From: Xanthomonas bonasiae
GTDB lineage: Bacteria > Pseudomonadota > Gammaproteobacteria > Xanthomonadales > Xanthomonadaceae
Direction of reading: 5' to 3'
Assembly (NCBI RefSeq): GCF_017163705.1
Contig: NZ_JAFIWB010000032.1
Coordinates: forward strand, 1-57,257
DNA: 57,257 nt
The translations under genes and the position numbers were made by a program. The notes below the pieces were generated by a model that saw only the letters and a program-made list of their open reading frames with translations, was not told the DNA's origin and searched no databases. Within the stretch, counting starts at the first letter, position 1. Every line of letters begins with the position of its first letter. Of the stretch, positions 15,311 through 49,159 are shown one piece after another.

Positions 15311-16444
15311 CTACAGGGCGCGGCCGATGATGTCGCGCAGGATCTCGCTGGTGCCGCCGAAGATGCGCAGCGCGCGCGCATCGGCCCAGGCGCGGCCGAT
15401 GCCGTATTCGCTGCTGTAGCCGTACCCGCCGTGCAGCTGCAGCAGCGCGTCCAGCACCTGGCCCTGGATCTCGGTGGCGTTGAGCTTGGCCATCGCCGCG
15501 GTGGTCGCCTGCAGCCGGCCATGCATGTGCTCGCCCAGGCACTGGTCGAGGAAACTGCGCAGCATCGCCAGCCGCGACGCCGCGTCGGCGAGCACGAAAC
15601 GGGTGTTCTGGTGGTCGATCAGGTGGCGGCCGAACGCCTTGCGCTGGCGCACGTAGGCCAGGGTCTGGTCGAGCATGCCTTCGGCCGAGGCCGCGGCGCG
15701 CAGCGCGATCGCCAGGCGTTCGGCGGCCAGTTGTTCGCCGAGGTAATCGAAGCCGCGCTGTTCCGCGCCGAGCAGGTGCGAGACCGGCACCGCCACGTCC
15801 TGGAAGAACAGCTCGCTGGTGTCCTGCGCGTGCTGGCCGATCTTGGCCATCGGCGCGCCGCGGACGACACCGGGCAGTGCGGTGTCGACGCAGAACAGGC
15901 TCAAGCCGCGCGCGCCCAGTTCCGGCGCCACGGTCGCCACCACCACCGCCACGTCGGCATTGCTGCCGTTGGTGATCCAGGTCTTCTGGCCGTTGAGCAG
16001 GTAGTGCTCGCCGTGACGCACGGCGCGGGTGCGGATCGCCTTGAGATCGCTGCCGGCGCCGGGCTCGGTCATCGCGATCGCGCCGATCGCCTCGCCGCGC
16101 GCCATCTTCGGCAACCACGCGTCGCGCACCGCGTCGCTGCCGTACTGCATCAGGTACGGCGCGACCATGTCCGAATGGATCGAGAAGCCGATGCCGAGGA
16201 AATTCGCCCGCGCCAGTTCCTCGATCACGCAGGCGGCATGCCCGGCGTCGCCGCCCAGGCCGTAGGGTTCGGGCAGCTGGCAGTTGAGCAGGCCGGCCGC
16301 GCCGGCCGCACGCCACAGCGCGCGCGGGGTGATGCCGTCGCGCTCCCACTGCGCGTAGTGCGGGGCGATCTGGCTGTCGATGAAACGCCGCACCTGCGCA
16401 CGGAACAGCGTGTGGTCTTCGCGGAACACGGGGCGCTCGCGCAT
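15311..16444 (-). CDS. Acyl-CoA dehydrogenase-like flavoprotein at the end of the exopolysaccharide operon
   Basis: A 377-residue FAD enzyme of the acyl-CoA dehydrogenase family. FAD and substrate segments include AIAMTEPGAGSDLKAI, KTWITNGSNADV, YVRQRKAFGRHL, LQLHGGYGYSSEYGIGR and IFGGTSEILRDIIG. The usual C-terminal catalytic Glu is Gly (GGTSE). A Glu in AAERLAIAL is in the position used by isovaleryl-CoA and prolyl-carrier dehydrogenases (IVD, PltE). It starts 3 bp after the AlgF-like gene and is last of eleven tightly packed genes including a carrier protein and an adenylation enzyme. I infer that it oxidises the carrier-bound acyl or aminoacyl group before transfer to polysaccharide. Alternative: an ordinary fatty or branched-chain acyl-CoA dehydrogenase caught in the operon. 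Confidence 0.85.
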   Translation of the reverse strand: MRERPVFREDHTLFRAQVRRFIDSQIAPHYAQWERDGITPRALWRAAGAAGLLNCQLPEPYGLGGDAGHAACVIEELARANFLGIGFSIHSDMVAPYLMQYGSDAVRDAWLPKMARGEAIGAIAMTEPGAGSDLKAIRTRAVRHGEHYLLNGQKTWITNGSNADVAVVVATVAPELGARGLSLFCVDTALPGVVRGAPMAKIGQHAQDTSELFFQDVAVPVSHLLGAEQRGFDYLGEQLAAERLAIALRAAASAEGMLDQTLAYVRQRKAFGRHLIDHQNTRFVLADAASRLAMLRSFLDQCLGEHMHGRLQATTAAMAKLNATEIQGQVLDALLQLHGGYGYSSEYGIGRAWADARALRIFGGTSEILRDIIGRAL

Positions 16445-16447
16445 GGC

Positions 16448-17128
16448 TCAGCGTCCGAACGGATCGGTGCCGCTGAGCTGGCCCTGCAGCACCAGCGCAT
16501 TGCCGCTGCCGCTCAGGAACAGGCTGTAGTGGTCGCCGGGCTGCAGCGACGGCAGCGCCAGCGGCACGCTGTCCTTGCTGCCGCACGTGGCGACCAGGCG
16601 GGCCTTGACCGGGTTGATCGCGCGCGCGCTGCTGGCGCCCGCGGCGACGGCCGGGAATACCACCGCGCCGTTGTCGGCGATCGCCAGCCGCGCCTGGCCG
16701 CAGCCGCCGGCCAGGTTGTAGAAGCGGATCTCGGCCTTGAGCGCGTCGCTGCTGCCGCCGCCATCGGCCAGCACCGCCAGCGGCCGCGACGGCGCGGCCG
16801 GGTCCAGCACCAGCGTGGTGAAGCTGCCCGCGGCGACCTGGGCCTGCTCGCGCGCCTTGCCGGCCACGCGCAGCGCGAACGGCTTGCCGCCTTCGACGAT
16901 GGCGTAGCGGGTGGCGCGGGTGGCCGGACCGATGCGCTGTGCGGCGCCATTGCCGATGCCGACCTCGAGCGCGGCATCGCCCGGGTTGAGCACGCGCACG
17001 AACGCCGAACCGGCCGGCGGGCGCGCGGCGTACAGCTGCGCGAGGCGGCCTTCCGCGGCGCCCTGTTGGGCGGTGGCGGCCAGTGGCGCGAGCGCGGTGG
17101 CGGCAAGCAATGCGAGCATCAATTTCAT
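16448..17128 (-). CDS. AlgF-like periplasmic polysaccharide-modification protein
   Basis: A 226-residue exported protein with a signal peptide (MKLMLALLAATALAPLAATAQ). The mature part fits the AlgF family, periplasmic partners of alginate and cellulose O-acetylation: AGSAFVRVLNPGDAALEVGIG, RYAIVEGG, SFTTLVLD, AEIRFYNLAGGCGQARLAI and PGDHYSLFLSGSG. The start codon overlaps the stop of the adenylation enzyme by 4 bp (ATGA). With the MBOAT and two SGNH proteins upstream it completes an AlgF/AlgI/AlgJ/AlgX-like set. Probable role: receiving or presenting the acyl group in the periplasm. The family match is by overall pattern, so a search is needed to be certain. Confidence 0.75.
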   Translation of the reverse strand: MKLMLALLAATALAPLAATAQQGAAEGRLAQLYAARPPAGSAFVRVLNPGDAALEVGIGNGAAQRIGPATRATRYAIVEGGKPFALRVAGKAREQAQVAAGSFTTLVLDPAAPSRPLAVLADGGGSSDALKAEIRFYNLAGGCGQARLAIADNGAVVFPAVAAGASSARAINPVKARLVATCGSKDSVPLALPSLQPGDHYSLFLSGSGNALVLQGQLSGTDPFGR

Positions 17129-18600
17129 CGTGGCGTTTCCTGGCTGCGGAGCGTGCGCGCCATGGCATAGCGCTGCTCCAGTTGTTTGCGATCGACCTTG
17201 TCGCTGTTGCCGGTGGGCAACGCGTCCACGGCGATCAGTTCGGAGGGAATCATGTAGGCCGGCACGCGGCGAGCGAGTTGCTGCTTCCAGTCCCGCAGCG
17301 CATCCGGCAGCGGCTGTACCGCGCCGACGCCCGGCACCGACAGTTCGACGAAGCCGATCATCCGCACCAGGCTGCCATCGGGCCGGCGCAGCACCACGGC
17401 AGCACCGGCGACCACGCCGTCCAGGGTCGACAGCGCCGCATCCACTTCGGCCAGTTCGATGCGATAGCCGTTGAGCTTGATCTGGTCGTCCCTGCGGCCG
17501 CGGAAGTAGAGCCGGCCCTGCGCATCGACCTCGCCCAGGTCGCCGCTGCGGTAGGCACGCTTGCCGTTGTGCTCGAACAGCACGCCCTGGTCGAGGTCGG
17601 GGCGGTCCAGATAGCCGCGCATCACGTGGTCGCCGGCCATGCAGATCTCGCCGGCGTCGAGGAAAATCTCGGCATACGGCTTGGCTACGCCGATCGGAAA
17701 CGGGTTGGGTGCGGCCGCGCGCAGTGCGGCATCGATCTCCACCCAGGTGGTGGAACAGGTCGCTTCGGTCGGGCCGTAGGAGTTGACGATGCGCGCCTGC
17801 GGAAAGCGCGCCCACACCTCTTCGGCCACACGCGGGGTCAGCGACTCGGCGCCGAACACGAACACCTGCAGCGCGGGCAGGCGCTCGGCGCTGAAGCGCG
17901 GATTGAGCAGCTGCTGGCGCACGAACGAGGGCGTGGACGCCCACACCGCCACGTCGGACTGGCGCAGATGGTCGACGAAACGGTCGCTATCGGCGATCAC
18001 CTCGCGCGGGCACAGCACGCAGCACCCGCCCAGACCGAGCGCGCCGCACAGGTCGAACAGCGAGAAATCGAAGTTGAACAGCATCTGGTTGAGGAAGGCC
18101 GGCGCCGGCCCCAGCGCCAGGCAGTCGCGGATCCAGCCGGCGAACAGGGCCACGCTGTCGCGGCCGATCTGCACGCCTTTGGGATCGCCGGTGCTGCCGG
18201 AGGTGAACATGATGTAGGCCAGCTCCGGCACCGCCAGCGCGCGCGCGTCGTCGGCACCAGGGCCGAACGCATCGGTGGCGGCGTCGTAGACCGCGGCGGC
18301 ATGCACCAGCGCGACGATGCGCTGCAACCGCGCCGGCGGATTGATGGTGTCCACCGGCACATAGGTCACGCCCAGCTGCAGGCAGCCGAGCATGGCCACC
18401 ACGAAGGCGGACTGCTTGTGGCCCCAGATCACCAGCGCATGGCCCGGCTGCACGCCAGCGCGCTGCGCGCGGGCGGCCCACTCCTGCGTGGCCTGGTACA
18501 CCCCGGCCCAGTCCAGCACGCCGTCTGCATCGCGCAGCGCGGGCGCCTGCGCGGCGTGTTCGCGCTCGACGAAACGGCATCGCTCGAAATCAAAGCGCAT
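17125..18600 (-). CDS. DltA/PltF-like amino-acid adenylating enzyme
   Basis: A 491-residue stand-alone adenylation domain that should activate a carboxylic or amino acid as AMP ester and load it on the adjacent carrier protein. Core motifs: phosphate loop FTSGSTGDPKG (132-142), FNFDFS (175-180), YGPTE (275-279), RSGDLG (351-356), GRRDDQIKLNGYR, and a C-terminal PTGNSDKVDRK with the catalytic Lys. Overall it resembles D-alanine ligase DltA. The residue corresponding to the DltA Cys that favours D-alanine (motif FCGE) is Gly250 here (VFGAE), so another substrate is likely; the aligned pocket (Asp177, Phe178, Phe181) gives no clear match. An AGGAG lies 8 bases before the ATG. Product chemistry is inferred from neighbours: carrier protein 27 bp upstream, MBOAT next to it. 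Confidence 0.85.
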   Translation of the reverse strand: MRFDFERCRFVEREHAAQAPALRDADGVLDWAGVYQATQEWAARAQRAGVQPGHALVIWGHKQSAFVVAMLGCLQLGVTYVPVDTINPPARLQRIVALVHAAAVYDAATDAFGPGADDARALAVPELAYIMFTSGSTGDPKGVQIGRDSVALFAGWIRDCLALGPAPAFLNQMLFNFDFSLFDLCGALGLGGCCVLCPREVIADSDRFVDHLRQSDVAVWASTPSFVRQQLLNPRFSAERLPALQVFVFGAESLTPRVAEEVWARFPQARIVNSYGPTEATCSTTWVEIDAALRAAAPNPFPIGVAKPYAEIFLDAGEICMAGDHVMRGYLDRPDLDQGVLFEHNGKRAYRSGDLGEVDAQGRLYFRGRRDDQIKLNGYRIELAEVDAALSTLDGVVAGAAVVLRRPDGSLVRMIGFVELSVPGVGAVQPLPDALRDWKQQLARRVPAYMIPSELIAVDALPTGNSDKVDRKQLEQRYAMARTLRSQETPR

Positions 18601-18627
18601 GCATGCGGCTCCTGGCGCGGTCCGCGC

Positions 18628-18858
18628 TCAACGCCGGTGCGCGGCCACGTACTCGGCCAGCACCTGCACCGATTCGACCAGCGTGTCGATCTCGTCGATC
18701 GGCAGGGTCACGCCGAGACGGTCCTTGACCTCGACCATCAGCTGCACCTTGGACATCGAATCGAATAACGATTCCATGTATTCGTCGGGCTGCACGCGGG
18801 TGCCGATCACGCTCTCGACGATGTCGCTCAGCTGGGTCTGGAGGGTCTGCATGTCCAT
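18628..18858 (-). CDS. Acyl/aminoacyl carrier protein, DltC/PltL-like
   Basis: A 76-residue acidic carrier protein. Ser34 in LFDSMSKVQLMVEV is the expected phosphopantetheine attachment site, and the following KDRLGVTLPIDEID fits helix 2/3 of DltC- and PltL-type carriers. The ATG at 18858 has AAGGTG six bases upstream; a GTG at 18867 lies inside that site and was rejected. It starts 13 bp after the MBOAT gene and precedes the adenylation enzyme by 27 bp, as expected for a load-and-transfer module. It needs a phosphopantetheinyl transferase encoded elsewhere. Confidence 0.88.
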   Translation of the reverse strand: MDMQTLQTQLSDIVESVIGTRVQPDEYMESLFDSMSKVQLMVEVKDRLGVTLPIDEIDTLVESVQVLAEYVAAHRR

Positions 18859-18871
18859 GGGGTTCACCTTG

Positions 18872-20452
18872 TCAGAACTGGAAATAGAGGAAACGCGATG
18901 CCTTGTGCAGGCTCGACAGGCACAGCACGAGCAGCGACAGCATCGCCAGCAACCACGGCAGGTTGGGCTGCCAGCGCATCCACGCGCGCGGCGCCGGGTT
19001 CGGCTTGCTCAACGCGGGCGAGTACACGCCCATGATCTGGTGCGCGTTCGGCGCCAGCCATACAAGCGCCAGCAGCAGCGCGATGTACAGCAACTGCACG
19101 TGGTGGCCGATCAGCAGGCGCCAGGCATCGCCCAGGCCCATGCCGGCGATATGGCCGAGGCCGTGCAGGCTTTCCGCGCCGCGCAGGCCGGCCATGCCCT
19201 GCACCAACTTCCATGCATCGCCCACGCCATCGGCGCGGAAGAACGCCTGCGCCACCAGCACCGCAGCGAAGGTCAGCAACAGGTAACCGACATGCTGCAG
19301 CGGATTGAACGTGCGCAGCGCCGCCGGCGTGCGGCCGACGACGAAGATGCGCCAGGCATGGTTGATCGCCAGGTAGGCGGCATGCAGCAGACCGAAGATC
19401 AGGAACTGCAGGCCGGCGCCATGCCAGATGCCGGCCAGGCCCATCGCCCACACCGTGGGCAGCACGATCAACGACAGGAAGCCGCCCGCCGAGGCCACCG
19501 CGGCCGGGCCGCTGGCGCGCCCGTGGCGGCTGCGCCAGCGCGTCACCGCCATCGCCACCGGGTAGTACAGGTAGGCGGTGATGTAGCGGGTCAGGGTCAT
19601 GTGCCAGCGCGACCAGAAGTCGATCACGCTGGTCGCCTTGTACGGCGAATTGAAGTTGAGCGGGAAGCGGATGCCGAACATCCGCGCCAGCCCCAGCGCC
19701 ATGTCCGAGTAGCCGGAGAAATCGAAATACAGCTGCAGCGCGTAGCTCAACGCGGTGGCCCATGCGCCCCACAACTGCAGCTCGCCGGTGCTGGCGAAAC
19801 CGGCGTCGGCGTACGGCGCGATGCTGTCGGCCAGCAACACCTTCTTGGCCAGGCCGATCACGAACAGCATGCCGCCGACTGACAGGTTGTCGGCGTGGAA
19901 GCGGTAGGTCTCGCGCCTGCTGAACTGCGGCATCATTTCCTTGTGGTGGAGGATGGGGCCGGCGATCAGGTGCGGGAAGAAGGTCACGAACAGCACGTAG
20001 CTGAGCGGGCTGCGGTCGTTGACCAGGCCGGCGCGGCAGTCGAGCAGGTAGCCGATCTGGGTGAAGGTGAAGAAGGAAATGCCCAGCGGCAGGATCAACG
20101 CATCCATCGGGCCGATGTCGACGCCCAGGTCGTGCGCGAAGGTGACCATGGCCGCGACGTACTTGTAGTGCATCAGCAACGCCAGGTCGGCGACCACGCC
20201 CAGCGCGACCACCAGCAGTTGCAGCCGTGGCCGCTGGGCCAGCGCCAGCACGAGCAGGCTGACCAGGTAATTGAACACGATCGAGCCGAGCAGCAGCACC
20301 ACGAACTGCGGATTCCACCAGCCGTAGAACACGATCGAGGCCACGCACAGCCACAGCGCGGCCAGGCGCGGCTGCAGCGCACCGAGCAGGTAGTGCACGC
20401 CCAGCGCGATCGGCAGGAACAGCAGCAGGAACAGGAAGGAGTTGAACAGCAT
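18872..20452 (-). CDS. MBOAT O-acyltransferase, AlgI/DltB/WssH-like
   Basis: A 526-residue polytopic membrane protein starting MLFNSFLFLLLFLPIAL, the usual AlgI-type N-terminus. It has about 11 to 13 hydrophobic helices and the family motifs LPLGISFFTFTQIGYLLDC, FFPHLIAGPILHH, LYFDFSGYSDMALGLARMFGI, NFNSPYKATSVIDFWSRWHMTL and AGIWHGAGLQFLIFG, where His in WHG is the catalytic histidine. Such proteins move acyl groups from a cytoplasmic donor across the inner membrane onto a polysaccharide or teichoic acid. Its neighbours supply a donor (carrier protein plus adenylation enzyme, as in dlt) and periplasmic partners (two AlgX/J-like, one AlgF-like, as in alg and wss). That hybrid context is unusual. 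Confidence 0.93.
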   Translation of the reverse strand: MLFNSFLFLLLFLPIALGVHYLLGALQPRLAALWLCVASIVFYGWWNPQFVVLLLGSIVFNYLVSLLVLALAQRPRLQLLVVALGVVADLALLMHYKYVAAMVTFAHDLGVDIGPMDALILPLGISFFTFTQIGYLLDCRAGLVNDRSPLSYVLFVTFFPHLIAGPILHHKEMMPQFSRRETYRFHADNLSVGGMLFVIGLAKKVLLADSIAPYADAGFASTGELQLWGAWATALSYALQLYFDFSGYSDMALGLARMFGIRFPLNFNSPYKATSVIDFWSRWHMTLTRYITAYLYYPVAMAVTRWRSRHGRASGPAAVASAGGFLSLIVLPTVWAMGLAGIWHGAGLQFLIFGLLHAAYLAINHAWRIFVVGRTPAALRTFNPLQHVGYLLLTFAAVLVAQAFFRADGVGDAWKLVQGMAGLRGAESLHGLGHIAGMGLGDAWRLLIGHHVQLLYIALLLALVWLAPNAHQIMGVYSPALSKPNPAPRAWMRWQPNLPWLLAMLSLLVLCLSSLHKASRFLYFQF

Positions 20453-20465
20453 CGTCGGTCGGCGC

Positions 20466-21590
20466 TCAGTCGATCCCGGCCAATGCCGCCTGCTCGCCAT
20501 CGGTCAGCGGCAAGGACAGGGCCATTTCGGAGAATTCCCAGATCACCAGCTTCAGGCTCGGCGGCCATTGCGCGCGCTGCGGCCAGGCCGCCAGCAGCGC
20601 GCCGGAGAACTGGCCGCCGTCCAGGCTCTGGTTCCACACTTCGCGGCTCAGGGCATTGCCCAGGCGCTCGCCGAACAGGCTGCGACGCCCGTTGGAGCTG
20701 CCCAGCAGCAGCACCTCCACCGGCGGTGTGTCGTCGAGCAGACCGCCGCCGCGCAGCGGCGCGATGCTCTGCTCCGGTTCGCGATCCAGCGCCGGGCGCC
20801 AGGCCGGCGGCGCGTGCTCCAGGCCGGCCAGCACGATCAGGTCGCCCATCCGCGGCGTCGGCGCGCCGGGCGCGGCGACGGCGAAGGCCTGCCCGCCGCG
20901 CCCGCCGAGCAGCGGCAGCGCGGAGGCGGCTACCGCATCGGCCGCGCGCTGCGCGCCGATCCGGTTCATGTGCACGTCGGTGCGGAAGAACACCGGCACG
21001 TCGCCGGCCTGCAGCACCGGCAGCAGGTCGGTCGAGGCCACGCCCGCGGCGGCCAGCGCCTGTTGCCATTGCCCCAGCCGCGCGCGCATCGGCGCCGAAT
21101 AGCCCAGGCCGCAGGTGTGCGCCTGCTCGATCCGTGATTTGTCCGGCACCACCACCACCAACAGCTGCACACCCTGCGCCTGCAACTGCCGCGACCAATG
21201 CCGCATCAGCCGCACGCGCTGCGCGAACACCGCTTCGCCGGCCGCCGCCGGCGGACGCAGGCCATCGCGGTAGAACAACCAGCCCGGGCAACCCAGCGCG
21301 ACCTGCGGCCCCGCATCGCCGAGCAGCCGATAGCGCAACGCCGCGCCGACCAGATCGGCGCGCGCCTGCAACGGCAGCTGCAACGCCGCATCGATCGCAC
21401 GGCCGGCCGCGCCATCGCTCCAGCGCGCCGGCGCCAGCGACGCCGCCGGCAGCGGCGCGCAGCCAAGCAGCCAGCCGCCGCACGCCAGGCCGGCGAGCAG
21501 CAGCACCACCAGCACCGCGGCCGTGGCGAAGTGCGCACGCGCCGGCGCGGCCGGCGGCAGGGGCGCGGGCGCGCCGGGACGTGCAGGCAT
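20466..21590 (-). CDS. AlgJ-like SGNH acyltransferase, membrane-anchored
   Basis: A 374-residue protein with a cytoplasmic Pro/Ala-rich tail, one N-terminal membrane segment (ATAAVLVVLLLAGLACGGWLL) and a periplasmic domain of the AlgJ/AlgX SGNH type. Visible elements are GCPGWLFYRDGL (conserved dehydrated-loop GxxGWLF), QLLVVVVPDKSRIE, the Asp-x-x-His pair in FFRTDVHMNRIGAQ and the nucleophile region LLLGSSNG. This family finishes O-acylation of polysaccharide in the periplasm. It lies 3 bp after the other AlgX-like gene and 13 bp before the MBOAT gene. Two such proteins in one operon suggest division of labour, for example one catalytic and one polymer-binding, as for AlgJ and AlgX. Confidence 0.82.
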   Translation of the reverse strand: MPARPGAPAPLPPAAPARAHFATAAVLVVLLLAGLACGGWLLGCAPLPAASLAPARWSDGAAGRAIDAALQLPLQARADLVGAALRYRLLGDAGPQVALGCPGWLFYRDGLRPPAAAGEAVFAQRVRLMRHWSRQLQAQGVQLLVVVVPDKSRIEQAHTCGLGYSAPMRARLGQWQQALAAAGVASTDLLPVLQAGDVPVFFRTDVHMNRIGAQRAADAVAASALPLLGGRGGQAFAVAAPGAPTPRMGDLIVLAGLEHAPPAWRPALDREPEQSIAPLRGGGLLDDTPPVEVLLLGSSNGRRSLFGERLGNALSREVWNQSLDGGQFSGALLAAWPQRAQWPPSLKLVIWEFSEMALSLPLTDGEQAALAGID

Positions 21591-21593
21591 CGG

Positions 21594-22616: not shown

Positions 22617-22636
22617 GGCGGTTCTTTCGGCAGGTG

Positions 22637-25471
22637 TCAGTAGTTGAAGGTGGCGGTGGCGAACAGGCCCTTGGCCCGCTGGGAATCGCCGCCGCCGAAT
22701 GCGAAGCGGTACTGCACGCTCAGGTCCAGCGAGGAGCGCGCCGCGTTGTAACGGTCCTCGCGGAACCAGTAGCGCACGCCGAGGCCGGGGCCGGCGCCCA
22801 GGGACCAGCTGCGATCGGTGTCGGACAGGGCGAACGCCTGCTCGCCGATCAGCGGGTAGTCGATGCCGCTGACCCGCGAGCGCTGGTCGAGCCAGTCCGC
22901 GGCCACCACCAGATACGGATTGAGCACCCAGCGGGTCTGCTCGGCGCCGAACCGGTAGCTGCGGCCGGCACGCAGTTCCGCGGCGGCGAACGCTTGCGTG
23001 CGGTGCAGGCGGCCATCGGAGTCGAGCAGGGTTTCCACCGGCGCGCCGGTGGTGTCCAACCGATCCACGCTGAAGCGCGCGCGGTTGTCGTCCCAGCTGT
23101 AGCCGGCCTGCGCATAGCCGCTCAGCGTCCACCACTGGTTGACGTCGGTGCGCACGCCGGTGCCGTGATAGAAGCCGTAGGTCAGGTACGACATCCAGCC
23201 GCCGGCATGGTCGTCCAGGCGATAGCGCGCCAGCGTGTTGATCTGCTGCGGCTGGTTGGAATCGCGCTGGATGCGGCACTGGATCGCGGCCGCGTCCGGA
23301 TAGACGCCGCCGCTGCGGGTGCCGCTGCCGAGGAACTGGCGGCGCTCGATGCCGGCGCTCAGGCCGGTGCGACCGAACGCGTAGCGCACGCCGAACGATC
23401 CGACGGTGGAGGGCCAGCCGGCGCTGGAACGCGAGCGGCTCAAACGCTCGGCACGGGCGCGCGCGTCCTCGGTGGCTTCGCCGGTGCACGGGTCGACGGC
23501 GCGCACGGATTCGAACGTGCCGCCCTCGTCGTACAGCGTGTTGGCCGCGCGCGCATACGCTTCGAGCGTGCCATGGCGGTTGTTGAGCGCCGCGGGCCGC
23601 CAGAACGCCTCCAGCGTGCTGAACACCGAATCGCCGGGGGTGCTGATCGCCGTGCCGCCCAGGTTGCTCGCGGCCTGGCGCGCGCCGCGGTAGCCGGCCG
23701 AGGCGGTGATGCCCCACTCGCGCCCGAGGTTGGCGATCGAACTGCGCGTGTTGTAGCGCTGCGCCGTGTCCAGCGGCAACGCGCCCTGGTCGGCGCGGTC
23801 GATCGCGCTGCGCAGCAGCGCCACCGCCTGCGCGTTGTCGCCGTTGGCGGCGCTGGCATAGGCCTGGTCGAGCACCACGCTGGGCGGTGCCTTGCCGGTG
23901 GCCTCGGCCGCGCGGAAATCGTCGAGCGCCTGCGCCGGTTGCCCGTCGCGCTGCTGCAGGTAGCCGCGCTGCATCAGCAGCCCGGCATCGGCCGGGCGCT
24001 GGCCCAAGGCCCTGTCCAGGCGCTGCCGCGCCTGCGCGCGTTGCGCACGGTCGCCGGCGGCCAGCGCGGTGGTGAGCAGGTTCTGCAGACTGGCGTTGTC
24101 CGGGTTCTCCTGCAGCGCGCGCTGCGCTTCGCGGATGGCCTCCTGGTAATCGCGCCGTCCGTAGGCGGCGTAGGCGCGCTGCGCGGCGCTGCCGGTGCCC
24201 TGCAGGTCGGCCGGCGTCAGTTCGCACTGGGTGCCGTACGGCGTATCGCGGCATTGCTGGAACGGCGCCGGGTACGTCGCCAGGGTCAGCGACGGCGCCG
24301 GGCGCGCGCTGCGCAGCGCCTTCTCGCGCTGGGCGATGGCCTGGCCGAACTGCTTGCGCGCAGTCTCGTCCGCGCCGGCCAGCGGATCGGCCTGCAACGG
24401 CTGCAGCAGGCGCGCGCCACGTGCACGATCGCCCGCAGCGATCGCCGCATCCACCGCCAGCAGGCGCACGTTGCGCTGCTGCTGCGGATCCAGCCAGTCC
24501 TGGCGCAGGGCCGCGTCGAAATCGGCATTGGCCTGGTCGGTATGCAACTGGCGCTGGCGCAGATACGCGCGCATCACCAGCGCCACGGTGTCTTCGCTGT
24601 CGTTGTCCAGCGCCGCGTCGGCAGTGGCCTCGGCGGCGGGCAACTGCCCGTCCAGCAGTTGCGCGGTCATCAGCAGCAGGCGATGCGAGGCCACGTCCGG
24701 CGCATACGCCACCGCTTGCCGGGCGTACCCGGCGGCGGTGGCGAAGTCCTGTTCGATCAACGCCTGGTAGCCCTGCTGTGCCGGCTTGACCGCGCGCTGG
24801 CGGCCCAGCGCCACGCGCTTGGCCTGCAGGTCGGCGACATTCGGCGCGCCCAGCTGGATCGCCGCGGCGGCGGCGGCCTCGGCCTGTTCGAACTGCTGCC
24901 GGGCCTCCAGCGCGGCCACCCACAGCACCGCCCAGGCGCCCTGCTGCGGCTGCTGGCGGAAGGCCTGTTCGGCCTTGTCCGCGGCCTCGGCCATGCGATC
25001 GTTGTTGTAGGCGTCGTAAGCCTCGGTGGCGAGCGCGAACGCGCGCCGGTAGGCCTGCTCGGCCGGGCTCGGATGCGCGCTGGCGCGTGGCGCGGATGCA
25101 CCGCCGGCACGCGCAGCCGTCGCGGTGGCGGGTGCCGCGTTCGCGCTGGCCGCCAAGTGCGGCAATGCCGGATCCTGCAGCCCGTCGGCGAGCGCACGGC
25201 GCGCCTGCGCGCGCGCTTCGTCGCCGCGACCCAGCTTCTGCAGCGCGTAGATCTGCAACAGGCGCAGGCGCACCACGTCCGGGCGCAGCCGCGCCGCTTC
25301 GGCCGCCTGGCGATTGGCCTGCTGGTAATCGCCGCGGGCGTAGGACGCGTAGGCATCCTCGGCGATGCGATAGGCGGCGCCGGCCAACGGCAGTTGCTGC
25401 GCGTGCGCGGTGGCGCTACCCAGGCCGAGCAGGCTCAGGGCGATCACGCTGGAGAGCAGGCTGATTCTCAT
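22637..25471 (-). CDS. nfrA: NfrA-like TPR/beta-barrel outer-membrane exopolysaccharide exporter
   Basis: A 944-residue protein: signal peptide (MRISLLSSVIALSLLGLGSATAHAQ), many TPR-like helical repeats (about 30-530, for example AYASYARGDYQQANRQAAEAARLRP), then a C-terminal region (about 560-944) with the features of the phage N4 adsorption protein A C-terminal domain: ASAGYRGARQAASNLGGTAISTPGDSVFSTLEAFWRP, a run of amphipathic strands and a terminal aromatic residue (FATATFNY). In E. coli, NfrA is the outer-membrane component of the ManNAc exopolysaccharide (N4 glycan receptor) that phage N4 uses, working with NfrB. It overlaps the nfrB-like stop by 4 bp. It could equally be described as BcsC/PgaA-like in organisation, but the C-terminal part is not BcsC-like. 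Confidence 0.85.
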   Translation of the reverse strand: MRISLLSSVIALSLLGLGSATAHAQQLPLAGAAYRIAEDAYASYARGDYQQANRQAAEAARLRPDVVRLRLLQIYALQKLGRGDEARAQARRALADGLQDPALPHLAASANAAPATATAARAGGASAPRASAHPSPAEQAYRRAFALATEAYDAYNNDRMAEAADKAEQAFRQQPQQGAWAVLWVAALEARQQFEQAEAAAAAAIQLGAPNVADLQAKRVALGRQRAVKPAQQGYQALIEQDFATAAGYARQAVAYAPDVASHRLLLMTAQLLDGQLPAAEATADAALDNDSEDTVALVMRAYLRQRQLHTDQANADFDAALRQDWLDPQQQRNVRLLAVDAAIAAGDRARGARLLQPLQADPLAGADETARKQFGQAIAQREKALRSARPAPSLTLATYPAPFQQCRDTPYGTQCELTPADLQGTGSAAQRAYAAYGRRDYQEAIREAQRALQENPDNASLQNLLTTALAAGDRAQRAQARQRLDRALGQRPADAGLLMQRGYLQQRDGQPAQALDDFRAAEATGKAPPSVVLDQAYASAANGDNAQAVALLRSAIDRADQGALPLDTAQRYNTRSSIANLGREWGITASAGYRGARQAASNLGGTAISTPGDSVFSTLEAFWRPAALNNRHGTLEAYARAANTLYDEGGTFESVRAVDPCTGEATEDARARAERLSRSRSSAGWPSTVGSFGVRYAFGRTGLSAGIERRQFLGSGTRSGGVYPDAAAIQCRIQRDSNQPQQINTLARYRLDDHAGGWMSYLTYGFYHGTGVRTDVNQWWTLSGYAQAGYSWDDNRARFSVDRLDTTGAPVETLLDSDGRLHRTQAFAAAELRAGRSYRFGAEQTRWVLNPYLVVAADWLDQRSRVSGIDYPLIGEQAFALSDTDRSWSLGAGPGLGVRYWFREDRYNAARSSLDLSVQYRFAFGGGDSQRAKGLFATATFNY

Positions 25472-27612
25472 GCGCTCAGCTCTCCGCCGCTGCTGTACTG
25501 GGGGTTGGCCGCACGGCGATGCTGCTCGCGCACGGCGGCGGCGATCGCCGCCTGGGTGGCGACGCCGTGCTTGACCAGGTAGTCGCCGATGCGGCCGTCG
25601 CGTTGCGGCCTGTATTCGTCAAGCACGCGCTCGAACTGGTCGCGCGCGATCAGGCGCAGTTCCACCAGCAGATCGCCCAGCAGCGGCACCGCGTCGACGC
25701 GGTAGCTTTCGCCGCTGATCAGGCGCAGGCCGGCGTTGATTTCGCTTTCGCGCGCGATCGCCTGTCGCAGCACGCTCGCGTCCAGGTCGTGCAGCAACCG
25801 TTGCTGCTCCTCTTCGGACAATGCGTTGGAGACCGCGACCGCCACTTCGCCGGGCACGTCCGACGGCAGCGGCAGCAGCCGCCATTGCACGCAGGCCTGC
25901 ACCGACAACGGGAACTGCCCGGCCTGCAGATACGCCACGTCGATCGCCGCGCGCGGCAGATCGCCCTGGAAGGCGATGGCTTCGGCCAGGGTTTCGTCGT
26001 CCAGCCAGCCCTGCGCCACCAGGATCCGTCCCAGCGGTTGCTGGCGTCCGCCCTCCTGCTGGCGCAGCGCCTGCACCAGGCGCTCGGGCTCGACCGCTTC
26101 CCAGGTTGTCAGCAGTTCGCCCAGGCGCCTGCGGGTATGCACCAGCTGCGCGGCGCTGGGGAAATCGTGCATGGTCTTGTCCCACACCATGCGCTTGCCG
26201 AACAGCAGGTACAGCAGGAACAGGCGCCAGGCGCGCGCGGTGGCCATGAAGTTGATCATGTTGCCGACCACCATGCGCGGGATCGACATCAGCGCATGTT
26301 CCCAGCCGTACAGGCGGTTGACGAAGTAGAAGCGCTGCGCCACGCGCGTGGCCAGCGCGGCGGTGGTCAGCAGCGCCACGTTCATCTGCCAGGTGCCGCG
26401 CTGGAAGATGGTCGGGAACTGGGTCTCCCACGCGCCGGCGACCTTGAGCAGCCAGAACAGCAGCAACTGCAGGAAGATCAGATAGGCGAACACGCTGACG
26501 AACGAGGTGACGATGCCCTTGCGGTCGCGCGCGAGCAGGTACTTGGTCGCCAGCGAACCGCGCCAGCCCAGCGTTTCCCAGCTCTGCAGGCCGATGCCCA
26601 GCACCCAGCGCGCCTTCTGCCGGTACGAGGCGCGGAAGTTGTCGGGGAAGTATTCGCGCACGCACAGCGCCATGTGCAGGGTGCGCTCGCGCACCGGGCC
26701 CCAGCCGAACCACGACGGGCGGCGCACGCGGAACTGCACCGGGAAGCGCGCGAAGATCGAGTGCATGCCCATCGCCGCCAGGCGTGCGCCGACGTCGTAG
26801 TCCTCGGTCAGGCTGTCGGTGTTGAACGGCTGGTTGTCGCTGGCCTCGCTCAGCGCCAGCAGCGCCTTGCGCGAGAAACAGGTGCCGACGCCGGCCGACG
26901 GCACCATGCCGGACACGCTTTCGCGCACCACCAGGTCCTTGGCGTGCCATTCGGCGAATTCGTCCATGTACACGCCGGCCACCAGCTCGTACCACTCGCG
27001 GTCCAGCGAGGTCACCGGCAACTGGATCATGTCCTTGCGCGGCAGCAGGTAGTTGAAGAAGCGCAGCTCCATCGGGTGCAGCACGTCCTCGCTGTCGTGC
27101 AGGACCACGCCGGCGAACTCAATGTCGTTCTGCTTCTCGTACTCGAAGATCGCCAGGACCAGCCAGTTCAGGCAGTCGGCCTTGCTGGTCGGGCCGTCGT
27201 GCGGCACCTCGATGCGGCGCATGCGCTTGTAGCGGCGGCGCATGCGTTCCACTTCGGCGATGGTCTGCGCGTCGTTGGGATAGGTGCCGACGAAGACCAC
27301 GTAGTCGTGGTAATCGAGCACGTCGATCATGTTCTCGACCATCTGCCCGATCACGTCGAACTCGGCCCAGGCCGGCACCATGATCGCCAGCGTCTGTTCC
27401 GGCCGCTGCAGCAGGTCCTGCTGGGTCAGCGGCCGGTATTCGCTGCGCTGCTTGAGGATCACGCTGCGCCAGATTTCGCGCGCCCAATACCAGGCATCGA
27501 TGAACAGGTCGTCGAGGCTGGAGATCAGGATCACCACCGCGACCACCACGGCCGCCGTCTCCAGGAAGGCGTAGTAGTTGGCCAGGTAGATGTTCCAGTA
27601 CAGACCGTCCAC
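25468..27612 (-). CDS. nfrB: NfrB-like c-di-GMP-responsive glycosyltransferase
   Basis: A 714-residue inner-membrane GT2 synthase. Membrane helices flank a catalytic core with HDSED (172-176), TEDYD (269-273) and QKARW (332-336), the D-D-D-QxxRW set of processive synthases. The C-terminal 220 residues hold MshEN-type c-di-GMP motifs: 24-residue units starting RLGELL (496) and PLGRIL (526) separated by six residues, and a second pair starting at residues 644 and 674 (RIGDYLVKHG). In E. coli, NfrB makes a ManNAc polymer from UDP-ManNAc supplied by WecB and is activated by c-di-GMP. It starts with GTG 6 bp after the bcsB-like stop, without a good Shine-Dalgarno sequence. Confidence 0.9.
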   Translation of the reverse strand: MDGLYWNIYLANYYAFLETAAVVVAVVILISSLDDLFIDAWYWAREIWRSVILKQRSEYRPLTQQDLLQRPEQTLAIMVPAWAEFDVIGQMVENMIDVLDYHDYVVFVGTYPNDAQTIAEVERMRRRYKRMRRIEVPHDGPTSKADCLNWLVLAIFEYEKQNDIEFAGVVLHDSEDVLHPMELRFFNYLLPRKDMIQLPVTSLDREWYELVAGVYMDEFAEWHAKDLVVRESVSGMVPSAGVGTCFSRKALLALSEASDNQPFNTDSLTEDYDVGARLAAMGMHSIFARFPVQFRVRRPSWFGWGPVRERTLHMALCVREYFPDNFRASYRQKARWVLGIGLQSWETLGWRGSLATKYLLARDRKGIVTSFVSVFAYLIFLQLLLFWLLKVAGAWETQFPTIFQRGTWQMNVALLTTAALATRVAQRFYFVNRLYGWEHALMSIPRMVVGNMINFMATARAWRLFLLYLLFGKRMVWDKTMHDFPSAAQLVHTRRRLGELLTTWEAVEPERLVQALRQQEGGRQQPLGRILVAQGWLDDETLAEAIAFQGDLPRAAIDVAYLQAGQFPLSVQACVQWRLLPLPSDVPGEVAVAVSNALSEEEQQRLLHDLDASVLRQAIARESEINAGLRLISGESYRVDAVPLLGDLLVELRLIARDQFERVLDEYRPQRDGRIGDYLVKHGVATQAAIAAAVREQHRRAANPQYSSGGELSA

Positions 27613-27618
27613 AGGCGA

Positions 27619-29841
27619 TCAGTGCCCGTTGGTCTGCGCGGACTTGCGGCGGCGACGCACCTGCACCACCCGCGCGGCCAGCAGCATGAACACGATCACG
27701 CCCACCAGCACCACCAGCCACACCATGTGCTGCTGCCACAGCGGCTGCGGGTTGCTCTGCTCGGCCATGCGCGCGCCGGTAGGGTCCTGACCGTCGAAGT
27801 CCTGCACCACGCCGTCGGCATCCAGCAGCGCCAGATTGCCGCGGATCAGCCGGAACGGTTCGGCGATCTGCGGCCCCTGCGTGCCCAGCTCGCGGTAGAT
27901 CACCCCGGTGTGGGCGCCGCTGCCGACCACTTCGACCAGCGCGGCGCGATCGAGTCCGGCCAGGTCCAGCAGCACCTGCTTGCCCGGGCCGGACACCACC
28001 AGCTTGCCGTCGCGCACCGCCCCGCTCTGCGCCAGCCCCTGCGGCGCCAGCACGAAGCTGAGGTAGGCACCGGTCGGCGCGATCGCGGTCCCGGCATCGC
28101 CGACCTTCAGCACCGCCTGCATCGGCGAGGCGCCGGTCGCGCCGGCGAGATGGATCACCTTGGCCAGCGAAGCCGGCGCGTCCTGCAGCCAGCTACTGGG
28201 CACGAACACCTCGTGCGCGCCGGCCAGCTGCGAGGCCGCGCCGACGAAATCGGCGGCGAGGCTGCGATCGGCCAGACGGATGTGGCTGCTGGGCAGCACC
28301 GACACCGGATAGCCGGTGGCCGGATCATGGCAGTACGGACGCGCCGGCTGGCGCAGGAAGCTGATCCGCACCTGGTTGCGCGCGGCCAGCGCGAAGCTCG
28401 GCACCTTGGCGACCAGGCGCTGCGGCTTGCCGTCGGCATCGAGCACCTTGGCGCCCAGCAGGTAGTCGTTGAAGAAGATCGAGGCGACCGCGCCCTGCCC
28501 GGCCGGGTTCGGCGCCGCGCTGACGTCGACCACCACTTCGCTGGGCAGGCGTCCTTCGCTGGACAGCGCGCCCAGGTCGAAGTTCGCGGTGCGGTCGCCG
28601 CGCGAGACGATGTCCTGGGTCCCGGCCATGTCGCCGAGGCGGCCGAGCAGCACCACGTCCTTGTCGGCCGGCGGCAGCAGCGCGGTGCTCACCAGCAGCG
28701 CACGGCCCTGCGCATAGCCGCGCCATTGTTGGGTCAGCAGGCCGGCGACCTTGGCGCCGGCGCCGCTGGCGACCAGCAGGGTCGGATGCCCGCCGACCAG
28801 CGCCACCTGCACCGACGCGGTGCCGGCCGGCTGTTCGAACCCGGCCATGTCGGCCTTGCGCCACGCGGCGAACGCGCCAGCCGCGTCCGGCGCGGCGCTG
28901 GCGACCTGGGCGCCCAAGGCATCCAGCGCGGCGCGCACGCCGGCGCGCAACGGATCGCTCAGCACCGCCACGTCGACCGCCAGCGGACCGCCATCGCCGA
29001 GCGACAGCAGCGCGCCGACTTCGGCCAGGCTGCCGATGCGGTGGCTGGCGCTGCCGTCGGCCAACGCCGCGTAGGCGGGGATGCCGGCCAGGCTGGCCGG
29101 GATCGCCAGCCCGCGCAGGTCCACGCTCGCGCCCACCGCCGGCAGCGCGACCACGTCGACGCGCTTGCCGCCGTTCTCCAGCGCCGTGCCCACGCGCCAC
29201 GCGGTGTCGTAGCTTTGCACGCTGGTGGCGCGGCCTTCCACCAGCAGCCGCACCGTGGCCGGCAACGCGCCCCAGGCCTTGGCCACGGTGTCGATCGCGC
29301 GGCCGTCGAAGCGGTAGCTGAAGCGCGAATCCGGCGACAGCCGCAGCACGTTGGCCGGTGCGCTCTGATCGGCGCACTGGTATTCGGAGACCACCGACCA
29401 CCAGCCCACGCCGAAGCGCACGAAGCCGTTGGGGCGGGCGAAACCGTCGATGCCGATCAGCTGGCTGACGTCGCCCTGGGCATCGGTGATCGAACGCGCC
29501 GACACCGGGTCGCCGTCGATCGACAGCAGGCTGGAGGTGCGCCCGGTATGCCCACGCACGTAGCGCGCATCGACCTGCAACTGCGCATCGCGGGTCGGCA
29601 CGCCGGCCGGCACCGGCAGGTAGATGTCGCGCTGGCTTTCCTGGCCGCTGAGCACCAGCGGCTGCTTGAAGCCCAGCTCACGCAGGGTCATCGAGCGGGT
29701 GACCGTGGTGGCGCCGGCCCACTCGCCGAACTGGCCGGCGACGGAATCGGCGGCAGCGGCAGGAGTCAGCGCGGTCGACAGGACCAAGGCCAGCGGCAGA
29801 CCCTGGGGGAAACGGGCGGTGGAACGGCGGGTCTGGGTCAT
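27619..29841 (-). CDS. BcsB-like periplasmic, membrane-anchored synthase partner
   Basis: A 740-residue exported protein: signal peptide (ends near LTPAAAA), two jelly-roll/flavodoxin-like halves as in BcsB (RDIYLPVPAGVPTRDAQLQVDARY, SIFFNDYLLGAKVLDADGKPQ, AARNQVRISFLRQ) and one C-terminal membrane helix (WLVVLVGVIVFMLLAARVV) followed by a basic tail. It is clearly distinct from the bcsB of the cellulose operon (37608-39923), to which it is only distantly similar. Located between wecB (ATGA overlap) and the nfrB-like gene, it should guide the nascent polymer through the periplasm. E. coli nfrAB has no such partner, as far as I know. Confidence 0.82.
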   Translation of the reverse strand: MTQTRRSTARFPQGLPLALVLSTALTPAAAADSVAGQFGEWAGATTVTRSMTLRELGFKQPLVLSGQESQRDIYLPVPAGVPTRDAQLQVDARYVRGHTGRTSSLLSIDGDPVSARSITDAQGDVSQLIGIDGFARPNGFVRFGVGWWSVVSEYQCADQSAPANVLRLSPDSRFSYRFDGRAIDTVAKAWGALPATVRLLVEGRATSVQSYDTAWRVGTALENGGKRVDVVALPAVGASVDLRGLAIPASLAGIPAYAALADGSASHRIGSLAEVGALLSLGDGGPLAVDVAVLSDPLRAGVRAALDALGAQVASAAPDAAGAFAAWRKADMAGFEQPAGTASVQVALVGGHPTLLVASGAGAKVAGLLTQQWRGYAQGRALLVSTALLPPADKDVVLLGRLGDMAGTQDIVSRGDRTANFDLGALSSEGRLPSEVVVDVSAAPNPAGQGAVASIFFNDYLLGAKVLDADGKPQRLVAKVPSFALAARNQVRISFLRQPARPYCHDPATGYPVSVLPSSHIRLADRSLAADFVGAASQLAGAHEVFVPSSWLQDAPASLAKVIHLAGATGASPMQAVLKVGDAGTAIAPTGAYLSFVLAPQGLAQSGAVRDGKLVVSGPGKQVLLDLAGLDRAALVEVVGSGAHTGVIYRELGTQGPQIAEPFRLIRGNLALLDADGVVQDFDGQDPTGARMAEQSNPQPLWQQHMVWLVVLVGVIVFMLLAARVVQVRRRRKSAQTNGH

Positions 29842-31022
29842 GGCGTCGATTCTGAAAAAAGAGGGAGGTGGGACACCGGCGCGGCGCGGCCGGGCACGAA
29901 ACTGTCGAAGGACTGGCCGCGCAGCGCGGCCACGATCCGCGCCGAGGCGCGGCCATCGCCGTAGGGGCTGGCGTGGGGCAGGAACCGCGCGGGCCGCGCC
30001 GGCAACTCGCAGGCCGCCGCGACCGCGGCCACGATCCGCGCCGGATCGGTGCCGACCAGGGTCACCACCCCGGCCTGGACCGCCTCGGGGCGTTCGGTGA
30101 CGTCGCGCATCACCAGTACCGGCTTGCCCAGTGCCGGCGCTTCTTCCTGCACGCCGCCGGAATCGGTCAGCACCACGTGCGCGTGCTGCATCAGCCGCAC
30201 GAAGGCGAGGTAGTCCTGCGGCGCGATCAGGTGCACGTTGTCCAGCCCGCCCAGCTGCGCGCGGACCGGGCCCTGCACGTTCGGATTCAAATGCACCGGG
30301 TAGACGATCTGCAGGTCCTTGCGCTGCGCCAGTTCGGCCAGCGCGCGGCAGATGTTGGCGAAGCCGTCGCCGAAACTTTCGCGGCGATGCCCGGTGACCA
30401 GCAGCAACTTGCGCTGCGCATCCAGGAACGGGAACTGCGCATCCACCGTGGTGCGCAGCACGGCATCGCGCTCGAGCCGCTCGACGGTCAGTTGCAGCGC
30501 ATCGATCACGGTGTTGCCGGTGACGCTGATGCGGCCGGACAGGTTTTCCTGCCGCAGGTTGTCGCGCGCGCTGGCGGTGGGCGCGAACAGATGGTCGGCG
30601 ACCACGTCGATCACCCGCCGGTTCATTTCTTCCGGCCACGGCTGCTGCAGATTGCCGGTGCGCAGGCCCGCTTCGACGTGGCCGACCGGAATGCGCCGAT
30701 GGAAGGCGGCCAGCGCGGCGGTCATCGCGGTACTGGTATCGCCGTGCACCAACACGCGGTCCGGCTGCACCTGCGCATACAGGGCATCGAGCCTGGCGAA
30801 CAAGCGCGAACACAGGCCGTTGAGGGTCTGGTCGGCCACCATCACATCGAGGTCGTGATCGGGCTGGATCGCGAACAACGCCATCACCTGATCCAGCATC
30901 GCCCGATGCTGTCCGGTGATGCAGACCAGGGAGTCGATCTCCGGCGCGGCGTGCAGCGCGCGGACCAGCGGCCCCATCTTGATCGCCTCGGGGCGCGTAC
31001 CAAAAACGCAAAGAACCTTCAC
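29838..31022 (-). CDS. wecB: UDP-N-acetylglucosamine 2-epimerase (non-hydrolysing)
   Basis: Converts UDP-GlcNAc to UDP-ManNAc in the cytoplasm, here most likely to feed the NfrB-like synthase. Family hallmarks across 394 residues: KVLCVFGTRPEAIKMGPLV, TGQHRAMLDQV, VHGDTSTAMTAALAAF, GHVEAGLRTGN, PEEMNRRVIDVVADHLFAPT, TGHRRESFG, PVHLNPNV and LTDSGGVQEEAPALGKPVLVMRD. The GTG start is preferred because GGAG lies six bases upstream; an ATG 12 bases earlier (MEWW) overlaps that site. It is the first gene of the eleven-gene operon, and no other enterobacterial-common-antigen genes are nearby, so it is a dedicated copy. Confidence 0.93.
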   Translation of the reverse strand: MKVLCVFGTRPEAIKMGPLVRALHAAPEIDSLVCITGQHRAMLDQVMALFAIQPDHDLDVMVADQTLNGLCSRLFARLDALYAQVQPDRVLVHGDTSTAMTAALAAFHRRIPVGHVEAGLRTGNLQQPWPEEMNRRVIDVVADHLFAPTASARDNLRQENLSGRISVTGNTVIDALQLTVERLERDAVLRTTVDAQFPFLDAQRKLLLVTGHRRESFGDGFANICRALAELAQRKDLQIVYPVHLNPNVQGPVRAQLGGLDNVHLIAPQDYLAFVRLMQHAHVVLTDSGGVQEEAPALGKPVLVMRDVTERPEAVQAGVVTLVGTDPARIVAAVAAACELPARPARFLPHASPYGDGRASARIVAALRGQSFDSFVPGRAAPVSHLPLFSESTP

Positions 31023-31048: not shown

Positions 31049-31064
31049 AGTGACCATCGTCACA
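31049..31064. promoter_or_regulatory. Candidate Clp/CRP-binding site upstream of wecB
   Basis: AGTGA-N6-TCACA matches the CRP-type consensus TGTGA-N6-TCACA at 9 of 10 informative positions, centred 34 bp upstream of the wecB GTG. Xanthomonas Clp is a CRP homologue that recognises this type of site and loses DNA binding when it binds c-di-GMP. The operon encodes a c-di-GMP-activated synthase, so a Clp site here would link transcription and enzyme control. I could not place the promoter, so activation versus repression is open. Confidence 0.5.
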
Positions 31065-31418
31065 CAAAATGTGCGAACTGATGTGTACAAATCGTGCGGA
31101 TCGCAGGGGGATGCCCGCGGTCGCCGCTAGCATCGGCACGCGCGCCGCGGCTTTGCGCCGTCGTCCCGAGGGGCTGAAAGCTTGAATTTGCAAGGCGGTC
31201 GGCCAGTCACGGCCGGGCGTCGCACAGGCACATGCGCCGCCAGGCGCGGCGCTTGCCCGCGGTCAGACGCTGGCGGTAGATCGGCTGGGATGGTGCACTG
31301 CAACGACGTCGGTCCCGGGCATCGCCGAGGCCGAGGCCGATGCCGACCCCCGCGTCGAAGCGGGCGGTTGCGCTTCGAGGCGCTCAGGCGATGCCGCGAC
31401 GCGAACGGTGTCGGGGTC
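31065..31418. other. Upstream half of the wecB-bcsC spacer
   Basis: No gene is visible. The stretch nearest wecB (31065-31100) is AT-rich and should hold its promoter (a TTGTAC is present on the minus strand). Further out, the sequence is GC-rich and includes a short inverted pattern around ccgaggccgaggcc. Confidence 0.45.
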
Positions 31419-39923: not shown

Positions 39924-39970
39924 CGAGGGCAACCGGAAGAAAGAGGAAAGGAAAGACGGGGGAACGCGGC

Positions 39971-42121: not shown

Positions 42122-42217
42122 CAGCGATTCCTAACGAAGGGGGCGAAGCCGGCGCGCGTTTTTCCCCTCCGCGCGGCGACAGGACGACGATGCGCGGCAG
42201 CAACGGCCGCGCGCGGG

Positions 42218-42640: not shown

Positions 42641-42690
42641 CGATCACCCCCTAAGATGATTTTTGTAGCCGGTGGAATCGGATGGCCCGC

Positions 42691-49158: not shown

Positions 49159-49159
49159 G

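Follow-up and report, generated by a model that had tools for sequence, protein, structure and literature searches.

What does an exopolysaccharide operon do with its own carrier protein and its own acid-activating enzyme? The question is raised by a contig of Xanthomonas bonasiae (NZ_JAFIWB010000032.1, assembly GCF_017163705.1), whose whole 57,257-nucleotide stretch is the window analyzed here. Positions 15311–31022 of the window hold eleven genes, all on the minus strand, with spacings from 4-bp overlaps up to a 27-bp gap, the largest, which separates the carrier protein and adenylation enzyme genes. We give a probability of about 0.7 to the reading that these genes encode an exopolysaccharide machine gated by cyclic di-GMP (c-di-GMP), with a built-in, carrier-fed esterification pathway that uses an amino acid other than D-alanine. 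The original prediction, made from the letters of this DNA, had proposed eleven tightly spaced genes, which coordinates and family searches confirm. It had also proposed that they form one machine, in which an NfrB/NfrA/WecB-type polymer receives a carrier-loaded acyl group by way of a membrane-bound O-acyltransferase (MBOAT); synteny, the carrier serine and the catalytic residues support that proposal.

Family searches back all eleven gene names, that of BcsB being the weakest by sequence. Read 5′ to 3′, the order is wecB, BcsB-like, nfrB, nfrA, AlgX-like, AlgJ-like, MBOAT, carrier, adenylation enzyme, AlgF-like and acyl-CoA dehydrogenase. The operon's first gene, wecB (29838–31022), encodes a UDP-N-acetylglucosamine 2-epimerase that leads to UDP-N-acetylmannosamine (UDP-ManNAc; TIGR00236, 453 bits, cut-off 210), and from this gene we infer that ManNAc is in the polymer, which would be of the ManNAc type. 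Judged by coordinates, the operon is directly preceded by a wecB match in 21 of 22 loci (the copies in L086 and L089 have internal stops), and wecB, BcsB and nfrB are contiguous in all 10 stretches fetched. The BcsB-like gene (27619–29841) encodes a periplasmic co-polymerase subunit with a membrane helix at its C-terminus (PF03170, 24.4 bits, cut-off 21). The BcsB sequence family is matched by 8 of 13 aligned members; the best Foldseek match of the predicted structure (mean predicted local distance difference test score 75.7) is a solved BcsB (E 5.4e-23), and the 22 best matches are all BcsB chains or cellulose synthase complex chains.

The product of nfrB (25468–27612) is a processive GT2 glycosyltransferase (NF012033, 1143 bits) with an MshE-type c-di-GMP motif that scores above the cut-off of its model (NF053729, 72 bits, cut-off 38). 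It is 43% identical to the NfrB of Escherichia coli over 583 columns, and its D-D, TED and Q..RW motifs are kept in 50 of 50 loci. NfrA (22637–25471) is an exporter with tetratricopeptide repeats and an outer-membrane beta-barrel (PF13283 NfrA_C, 76 bits). Convergent with the operon, on the plus strand, lies a gene for a YbcH-type DUF4434 protein (14276–15292; PF14488, 187 bits), which by eye has a twin-arginine-like signal and a lipobox. The E. coli YbcH, encoded by the third gene of nfrBA-ybcH, belongs to the same family (235 bits) and is 28% identical to it; with this gene, the window holds the whole NfrB-NfrA-YbcH-WecB set. A YbcH-type gene is found in 44 of the 45 loci with at least 5 kb downstream, all except L091. 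The operon resembles the E. coli system for the NGR glycan, the phage N4 receptor, in its NfrB with c-di-GMP motif, NfrA, WecB and DUF4434 YbcH. From the E. coli nfrBA-ybcH operon, genes for BcsB, the carrier, the adenylation enzyme, the MBOAT, SGNH proteins, AlgF and the dehydrogenase are all absent.

The genes downstream of nfrA carry the residues that an acyl transfer pathway would use. Two periplasmic SGNH acyltransferases, AlgX-like (21594–22616; PF16822, the ALGX family, 238 bits) and AlgJ-like (20466–21590; a second copy of the same family, 213 bits), retain what we take to be their catalytic residues: Asp and His in 48 of 48 and Ser in 47 of 48 AlgX-like proteins, and Asp, His and the second Ser of the GSS motif in 46 of 46 AlgJ-like proteins. 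The MBOAT (18872–20452; PF03062, 67 bits) ends in an acyl-shuttle motif, FLYFQF, which is present in 44 of 45 loci. Its shuttle Tyr is kept in 49 of 50, the exception to both counts (L080) having a change of reading frame within the gene, and its two His residues are kept in 49 and 50 of 50. Directly after the MBOAT gene comes that of a stand-alone carrier protein (18628–18867; PP-binding domain PF00550, 25 bits; DltC models score below their cut-off) with a phosphopantetheine serine (..DSMSK..), whose Asp-Ser pair is present in all 45 loci read. It is followed by the genes for a stand-alone adenylation enzyme of DltA-like fold (17125–18600; AMP-binding, 182 bits), an AlgF-like periplasmic accessory protein (16448–17128; PF11182, 68 bits, cut-off 34) and an acyl-CoA-dehydrogenase-fold flavoenzyme (15311–16444; three Acyl-CoA_dh domains).

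Two described pathways share parts of this module. According to the available text of a 2025 paper (PMC12148441), the Dlt pathway is carrier-fed and has its shuttle tyrosine on a microprotein, DltX, whereas other MBOAT-SGNH pathways have no carrier, evidently use acyl-CoA and have the FxYxxF motif fused to the MBOAT. In dlt-type loci of other Pseudomonadota, a small open reading frame ending in FxYxxF, DltX-like, lies just upstream of the MBOAT gene in 7 of 7 examined, DltD is present in both loci scanned (L101 and L130), and the fused motif is absent from the MBOAT ends of the two loci inspected. The operon is like Dlt (DltA, B, C, D and X) in having a DltA-like enzyme, a carrier, an MBOAT, an SGNH transferase and a tyrosine shuttle motif. 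It is unlike Dlt in that the shuttle is fused to the MBOAT, AlgX/AlgJ stand in for DltD, AlgF and a dehydrogenase are added, the adenylation pocket differs, and the probable target is an exopolysaccharide. With alginate and PatAB O-acetylation it shares the fused shuttle, the SGNH partner or partners and AlgF, but those pathways are described, in the same available text (PMC12148441), as carrier-free and acyl-CoA-using. For PatA, the acyl-tyrosine on the tail has reportedly been trapped. As predicted from its genes, the machine is a hybrid: a PatA-like fused-shuttle MBOAT with AlgX/AlgJ/AlgF works alongside an adenylation enzyme and a carrier of the Dlt kind.

This combination recurs well beyond the window. 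A scan of 84,980 genomes anchored on the adenylation enzyme gave 193 relatives, of which 80 were kept. The nfr/Alg-type set is carried by 45 of these 80 loci (two, L070 and L092, lie on short contigs with nfrB out of view), which belong to Xanthomonas, Stenotrophomonas, Pseudomonas, Bordetella, Pandoraea, Achromobacter, Delftia, Burkholderia, Cupriavidus, Trinickia, Diaphorobacter, Oxalicibacterium and an Alcaligenaceae metagenome-assembled genome (MAG). Another 30 Alcaligenaceae loci (L098–L126 and L129) and five enterobacterial ones (L130–L134) are without nfr matches; these are Gram-negative dlt-type loci. The pooled set comprises 50 loci whose enzyme is of the operon type, namely the window, G596, G597, G111, 43 loci of the scan (L055–L097), L207, L211 and L213; L212 was dropped for lying on the same contig as L097, and G186 (identical with L055) and G390 (identical with L082, Delftia tsuruhatensis NBRC 16741) were counted once. 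Within 20 kb of the enzyme, nfrB, nfrA, algX, algJ and the MBOAT gene are all present in 48 of the 48 loci with at least 8.5 kb upstream, and algF is found in 49 of 50, the contig of L092 ending too early. The original prediction had proposed this search for co-occurrence, and had named as its own refutation that the modification genes stand apart from nfrAB in relatives and be unrelated in phylogeny. Our result leans against such a refutation: they travel together across genera, and their distances co-vary. One locus, L059, has algF between nfrA and algX and a strongly diverged nfrA.

Because loci anchored on the adenylation enzyme cannot reveal nfr systems without it, we also used a sample anchored on nfrB, the family of genome G390, where nfrB occurs in 16 of 289 genomes at 17 places. 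The full set with dehydrogenase is present at five (G390, L207, L211, L212 and L213), and decorating genes with a D-alanine-type enzyme and no dehydrogenase at three (G401, L208 and L210). Four places (L203, L205, L215 and L216) have no decorating genes in reach, L209 has algF-like and algX-like matches with no MBOAT, and the remainder are limited by contig ends (L206 ends after algF; L202, L204 and L214 are cut).

The likeliest rival is plain O-acetylation, in which the MBOAT uses acetyl-CoA while the carrier, adenylation enzyme and dehydrogenase serve something unrelated, such as a small metabolite. AlgX/AlgJ/AlgF and the fused-shuttle MBOAT make up a set of the alginate type, fused-shuttle pathways are said to use acyl-CoA (PMC12148441, in the text available), and acetylation is what two papers of 2021 assumed, so far as their available text goes (PMC8669472 and PMC8669469). 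We nevertheless consider this rival improbable. The carrier and adenylation genes of the window lie inside the operon, between the MBOAT gene and algF, and an adenylation gene is present at 8 of the 9 nfrB-anchored places with an MBOAT, the ninth being cut by a contig end, versus none of 20 ordinary fused-shuttle neighborhoods. Those 20 control MBOATs, drawn from 31 places besides the window's in 369 genomes, all have the fused shuttle motif, and when their neighborhoods were compared with adenylation enzymes, two carriers, nfrB and the dehydrogenase, no match was better than E 0.2, although a very divergent carrier could escape such a search.

We now turn to the group that the carrier would hold. 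The original prediction had left the choice between an aminoacyl and an acyl group. The aspartate that binds the amine is kept in all 48 operon-type adenylation rows compared, and the aminoacyl group is favored because of this retention; the pocket is not of the D-alanine type. Pocket sites were located by their spacing from this Asp (+1, +4 and +72) and by alignment with D-alanine-type relatives. Where the D-alanine pocket has Asp, Leu, Met and Cys, the window enzyme (pocket DFFAVGSCSK) keeps the Asp but has Phe in place of both Leu and Met, and Gly in place of Cys. A comparison of 47 operon-type with 34 D-alanine-type enzymes found 10 of 210 columns with near-fixed differences (>95% within either group). 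Of these 10 columns, 6 are specificity positions, of which nine are in range (P = 1.5e-7). On the best reading, the adenylation enzyme would activate an alpha-amino acid other than D-alanine.

These comparisons bear on a second rival, D-alanylation, in which a Gram-negative dlt pathway acts on the exopolysaccharide. The nearest solved structures to the adenylation enzyme are those of DltA, and a DltA-type pocket does occur beside nfr in five operons (L127 of Trinickia dinghuensis, L128, L208, L210 and G401), with the enzyme on the opposite strand in the last three; these five are predicted to produce a D-alanylated exopolysaccharide. For the window, D-alanylation is very unlikely. Its pocket departs from the D-alanine type at 6 of 9 positions, including a glycine in place of the cysteine that selects D-alanine (PMC8972799 and PMC4176424, in the text available), and the DltA model, with its cut-off of 560 bits, scores the enzyme at 333. 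Furthermore, Achromobacter pestifer LMG 3431 has a dlt-type locus (L100) apart from its nfr-type operon (L073). Plasmid-borne relatives of the adenylation enzyme amount to three records, enterobacterial AMP-binding proteins at 41%.

The dehydrogenase accompanies the new pocket. Among nfr loci it is present in 42 of the 49 with the new pocket and at least 2.5 kb downstream versus 0 of 5 with the D-alanine pocket (Fisher P 2.5e-4, for rows that are not independent), and, given NfrB, its distances follow the adenylation enzyme's (partial r 0.80). The 13 operon dehydrogenases placed in the tree group together as a clade of their own (support 100/100), and the nearest paralog in the window genome is 38% identical. 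Of nine genomes without an operon-side copy, eight (L059, five Pandoraea, L127 and L128) have a best match elsewhere of 36–37%, and in the MAG of L091 a 54% fragment lies where a different contig breaks off. In G134 and G592, which belong to the genus but lack the module, the best match is 38–39%. A glutamate, E242, is kept in 39 of 39 copies, and we take it to be the catalytic base of the isovaleryl/long-chain type. By these sequence relationships, the flavoenzyme is a subfamily dedicated to the operon.

An adenylation enzyme, a carrier and an acyl-CoA dehydrogenase together form the route from proline to a pyrrole-carboxyl group on a carrier, as in the PltF-PltL-PltE and RedM-RedO-RedW cassettes, and among the common amino acids only proline is known to give a stable product when it is dehydrogenated on a carrier. 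A third rival follows this trio logic: prolyl-carrier would be oxidized to pyrrole-2-carboxyl-carrier, and the polymer would bear pyrrole esters. The operon shares with such cassettes the stand-alone adenylation enzyme, the carrier and the acyl-CoA-dehydrogenase-type oxidase, and the RedW model (NF045652) does match the window dehydrogenase with 197 bits. That score is, however, far under the model's cut-off of 650. The RedW family search found one sub-threshold relative in 398 genomes, and this control locus, L137, has a RedW-like dehydrogenase beside a carrier-like open reading frame and an adenylation enzyme with a proline-like pocket, DLLYNALV-K, which we take to be the proline code, versus DFFAVGSCSK in the window. 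The operon also differs from these cassettes in the separate clade of its dehydrogenases and in the polymer transferases that accompany the trio. The proline cassette was dropped as the leading reading since the window pocket is not proline-like, and as a rival it is a long shot. Least probable is that the adenylation enzyme loads a fatty, hydroxy or aryl acid, one lacking the alpha-amino group, which the dehydrogenase then desaturates; desaturation of simple acyl thioesters is the normal reaction of this family and the best dehydrogenase matches are acyl-CoA enzymes, but the amine-binding aspartate in every operon-type row argues otherwise.

If polymer core and esterification module form one machine, their proteins may have changed together. 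Pairwise distances of nine operon genes correlate with r from 0.62 to 0.96, as expected from shared ancestry alone. Partial correlations separate the two Nfr proteins: NfrA distances, given NfrB, track those of AlgX (0.86), AlgF (0.80), the MBOAT (0.60) and the adenylation enzyme (0.62), while NfrB distances, given NfrA, give −0.18, 0.04, 0.21 and 0.15 for the same four. The undecorated genomes G134 and G592 match the window at 72–76% identity in NfrA and 88–93% in NfrB. The pattern fits an NfrA exporter that is adapted to a decorated or a bare chain.

Several observations weigh against the reading of a decorated, carrier-fed exopolysaccharide. The co-variation is confounded by common descent and by the block transfer of adjacent genes, which could give the same pattern, and the dehydrogenase shows no clear contrast, since its distances follow those of NfrA given NfrB (partial r 0.68) and also those of NfrB given NfrA (0.53). 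L066 is without an adjacent wecB, the exception among the 22 loci. The DFFAVGSCSK pocket names no single amino acid, and an aromatic or branched one would be no more than a guess. For the oxidation step, an alpha,beta-dehydrogenated primary amino acid is normally unstable, and seven of the 49 new-pocket loci have no dehydrogenase: five Pandoraea (L068, L069, L071, L083 and L090), Stenotrophomonas daejeonensis (L059) and the Alcaligenaceae MAG (L091). Consequently, the dehydrogenase is not required for loading and transfer. Within the genus of the window, nfrB is present in 8 of 20 genomes, and five of these eight (the window, G596, G597, G111 and G186) have all eleven genes. G134 and G592 carry wecB-BcsB-nfrB-nfrA, and a scan of 32 kb showed no modification gene there. 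In G590 (L029/L030), algF still gives a match, algX and the genes for the adenylation enzyme and dehydrogenase survive as fragments, and MBOAT, carrier and algJ are missing, which suggests a loss of decoration in one relative that retained the nfr core. The adenylation enzyme is uncommon within the family, where 3 of 198 genomes, counting that of the window, have it at E 1e-80. Since two of the eight nfrB-bearing genus genomes have nfr without modification genes, decoration is not obligatory; it is an optional, exchangeable module.

Part of this gene set was already in print, and the original prediction's claim that no such system had been described stands only in part. Two papers of 2021 are relevant. 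The Achromobacter xylosoxidans cluster combines nfrA, nfrB and wecB with BcsB and periplasmic O-acetyltransferase homologs (Sellner et al. 2021, PMC8669472), and in Simplicispira suum an alginate-type acetyltransferase cluster accompanies nfr (Junkermeier and Hengge 2021, PMC8669469). Both are described as acetylation, and the available text of the two papers mentions no carrier, adenylation enzyme or dehydrogenase. Among the matches listed from the open-access literature, we found no description of the carrier-fed version. For an N4-like Achromobacter phage, lipopolysaccharide is reported as the receptor in the available text (PMC5862860).

The carrier-fed esterification reading can be set out as a sequence of steps. 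WecB would supply UDP-ManNAc, as its gene suggests. NfrB, gated by c-di-GMP and assisted by the BcsB-like subunit, would polymerize and extrude the chain, NfrA would provide its passage through the outer membrane, and the convergent YbcH-type protein would be the usual accessory, all by homology. The adenylation enzyme would load an alpha-amino acid other than D-alanine onto the carrier, for which the amine-binding aspartate and the carrier serine are seen in the proteins. In most species, the dehydrogenase would then oxidize the loaded group, most likely on the carrier and at the alpha-beta position. The MBOAT would accept the group from the carrier and transfer it to the tyrosine in its C-terminal FLYFQF motif, from where AlgJ and AlgX, together with AlgF, would place it on polymer hydroxyls; here the motifs are present, and the reactions are proposed. 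Up to the carrier, such a pathway is Dlt-like, and after the carrier it is alginate/PatAB-like.

A more specific version of this scheme is tentative, and we hold the odds to be somewhat against it in full. It would define a third MBOAT-SGNH class, in which a carrier-bound amino acid, oxidized on the carrier by the flavoenzyme, passes via the MBOAT's built-in shuttle tyrosine to an exopolysaccharide of the ManNAc type under c-di-GMP control. This exopolysaccharide would then bear esters of an oxidized or aromatized amino acid, and the adenylation enzyme would have been swapped among lineages, for D-alanine in some Burkholderiales, for a new residue elsewhere, and for none where the module was lost or never acquired.

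The window holds other polysaccharide genes. Directly upstream lies a cellulose operon (31919–43194, minus strand), with BcsC-like (31919–36460), PilZ-bearing BcsA-like (39971–42121) and BcsD-like (42691–43194) genes, and a BcsC-like gene or its fragments adjoins nfr in further genomes of the genus. Between the two operons, upstream of wecB (31050–31900), are about 800 bp of repeats of one kind (gaagtcgctcccaca and neighbors), recognized by eye. A second c-di-GMP-type glycosyltransferase block (45759–50128, minus strand) includes a gene for an N-terminal MshEN domain with a GT2 domain (47221–49194), flanked by two genes with no Pfam match (45759–47273 and 49160–50128); it is possibly another uncharacterized polysaccharide synthase.

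Our verdict is that the operon probably encodes an exopolysaccharide system of the NfrB type, whose esterification module is fed by a carrier, uses a fused shuttle and has a new amino-acid specificity. Acylation has been described in two kinds, carrier-fed with a separate shuttle (Dlt) versus acyl-CoA-fed with a fused shuttle (PatAB, and alginate by inference). The operon combines the carrier with the fused shuttle, and its hosts belong to numerous common genera of Gammaproteobacteria and Burkholderiales, with opportunists and plant-associated bacteria among them. The exchangeable adenylation enzyme provides a natural series, from none to the D-alanine type, the new type, and the new type with dehydrogenase, that could serve to test how a decoration is selected. 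Esters are lost under alkaline extraction. If the reading is correct, Gram-negative exopolysaccharides would bear aminoacyl esters that acetyl-centered analyses would miss, and the charge, adhesion and phage recognition of the NGR-type glycan would be altered.

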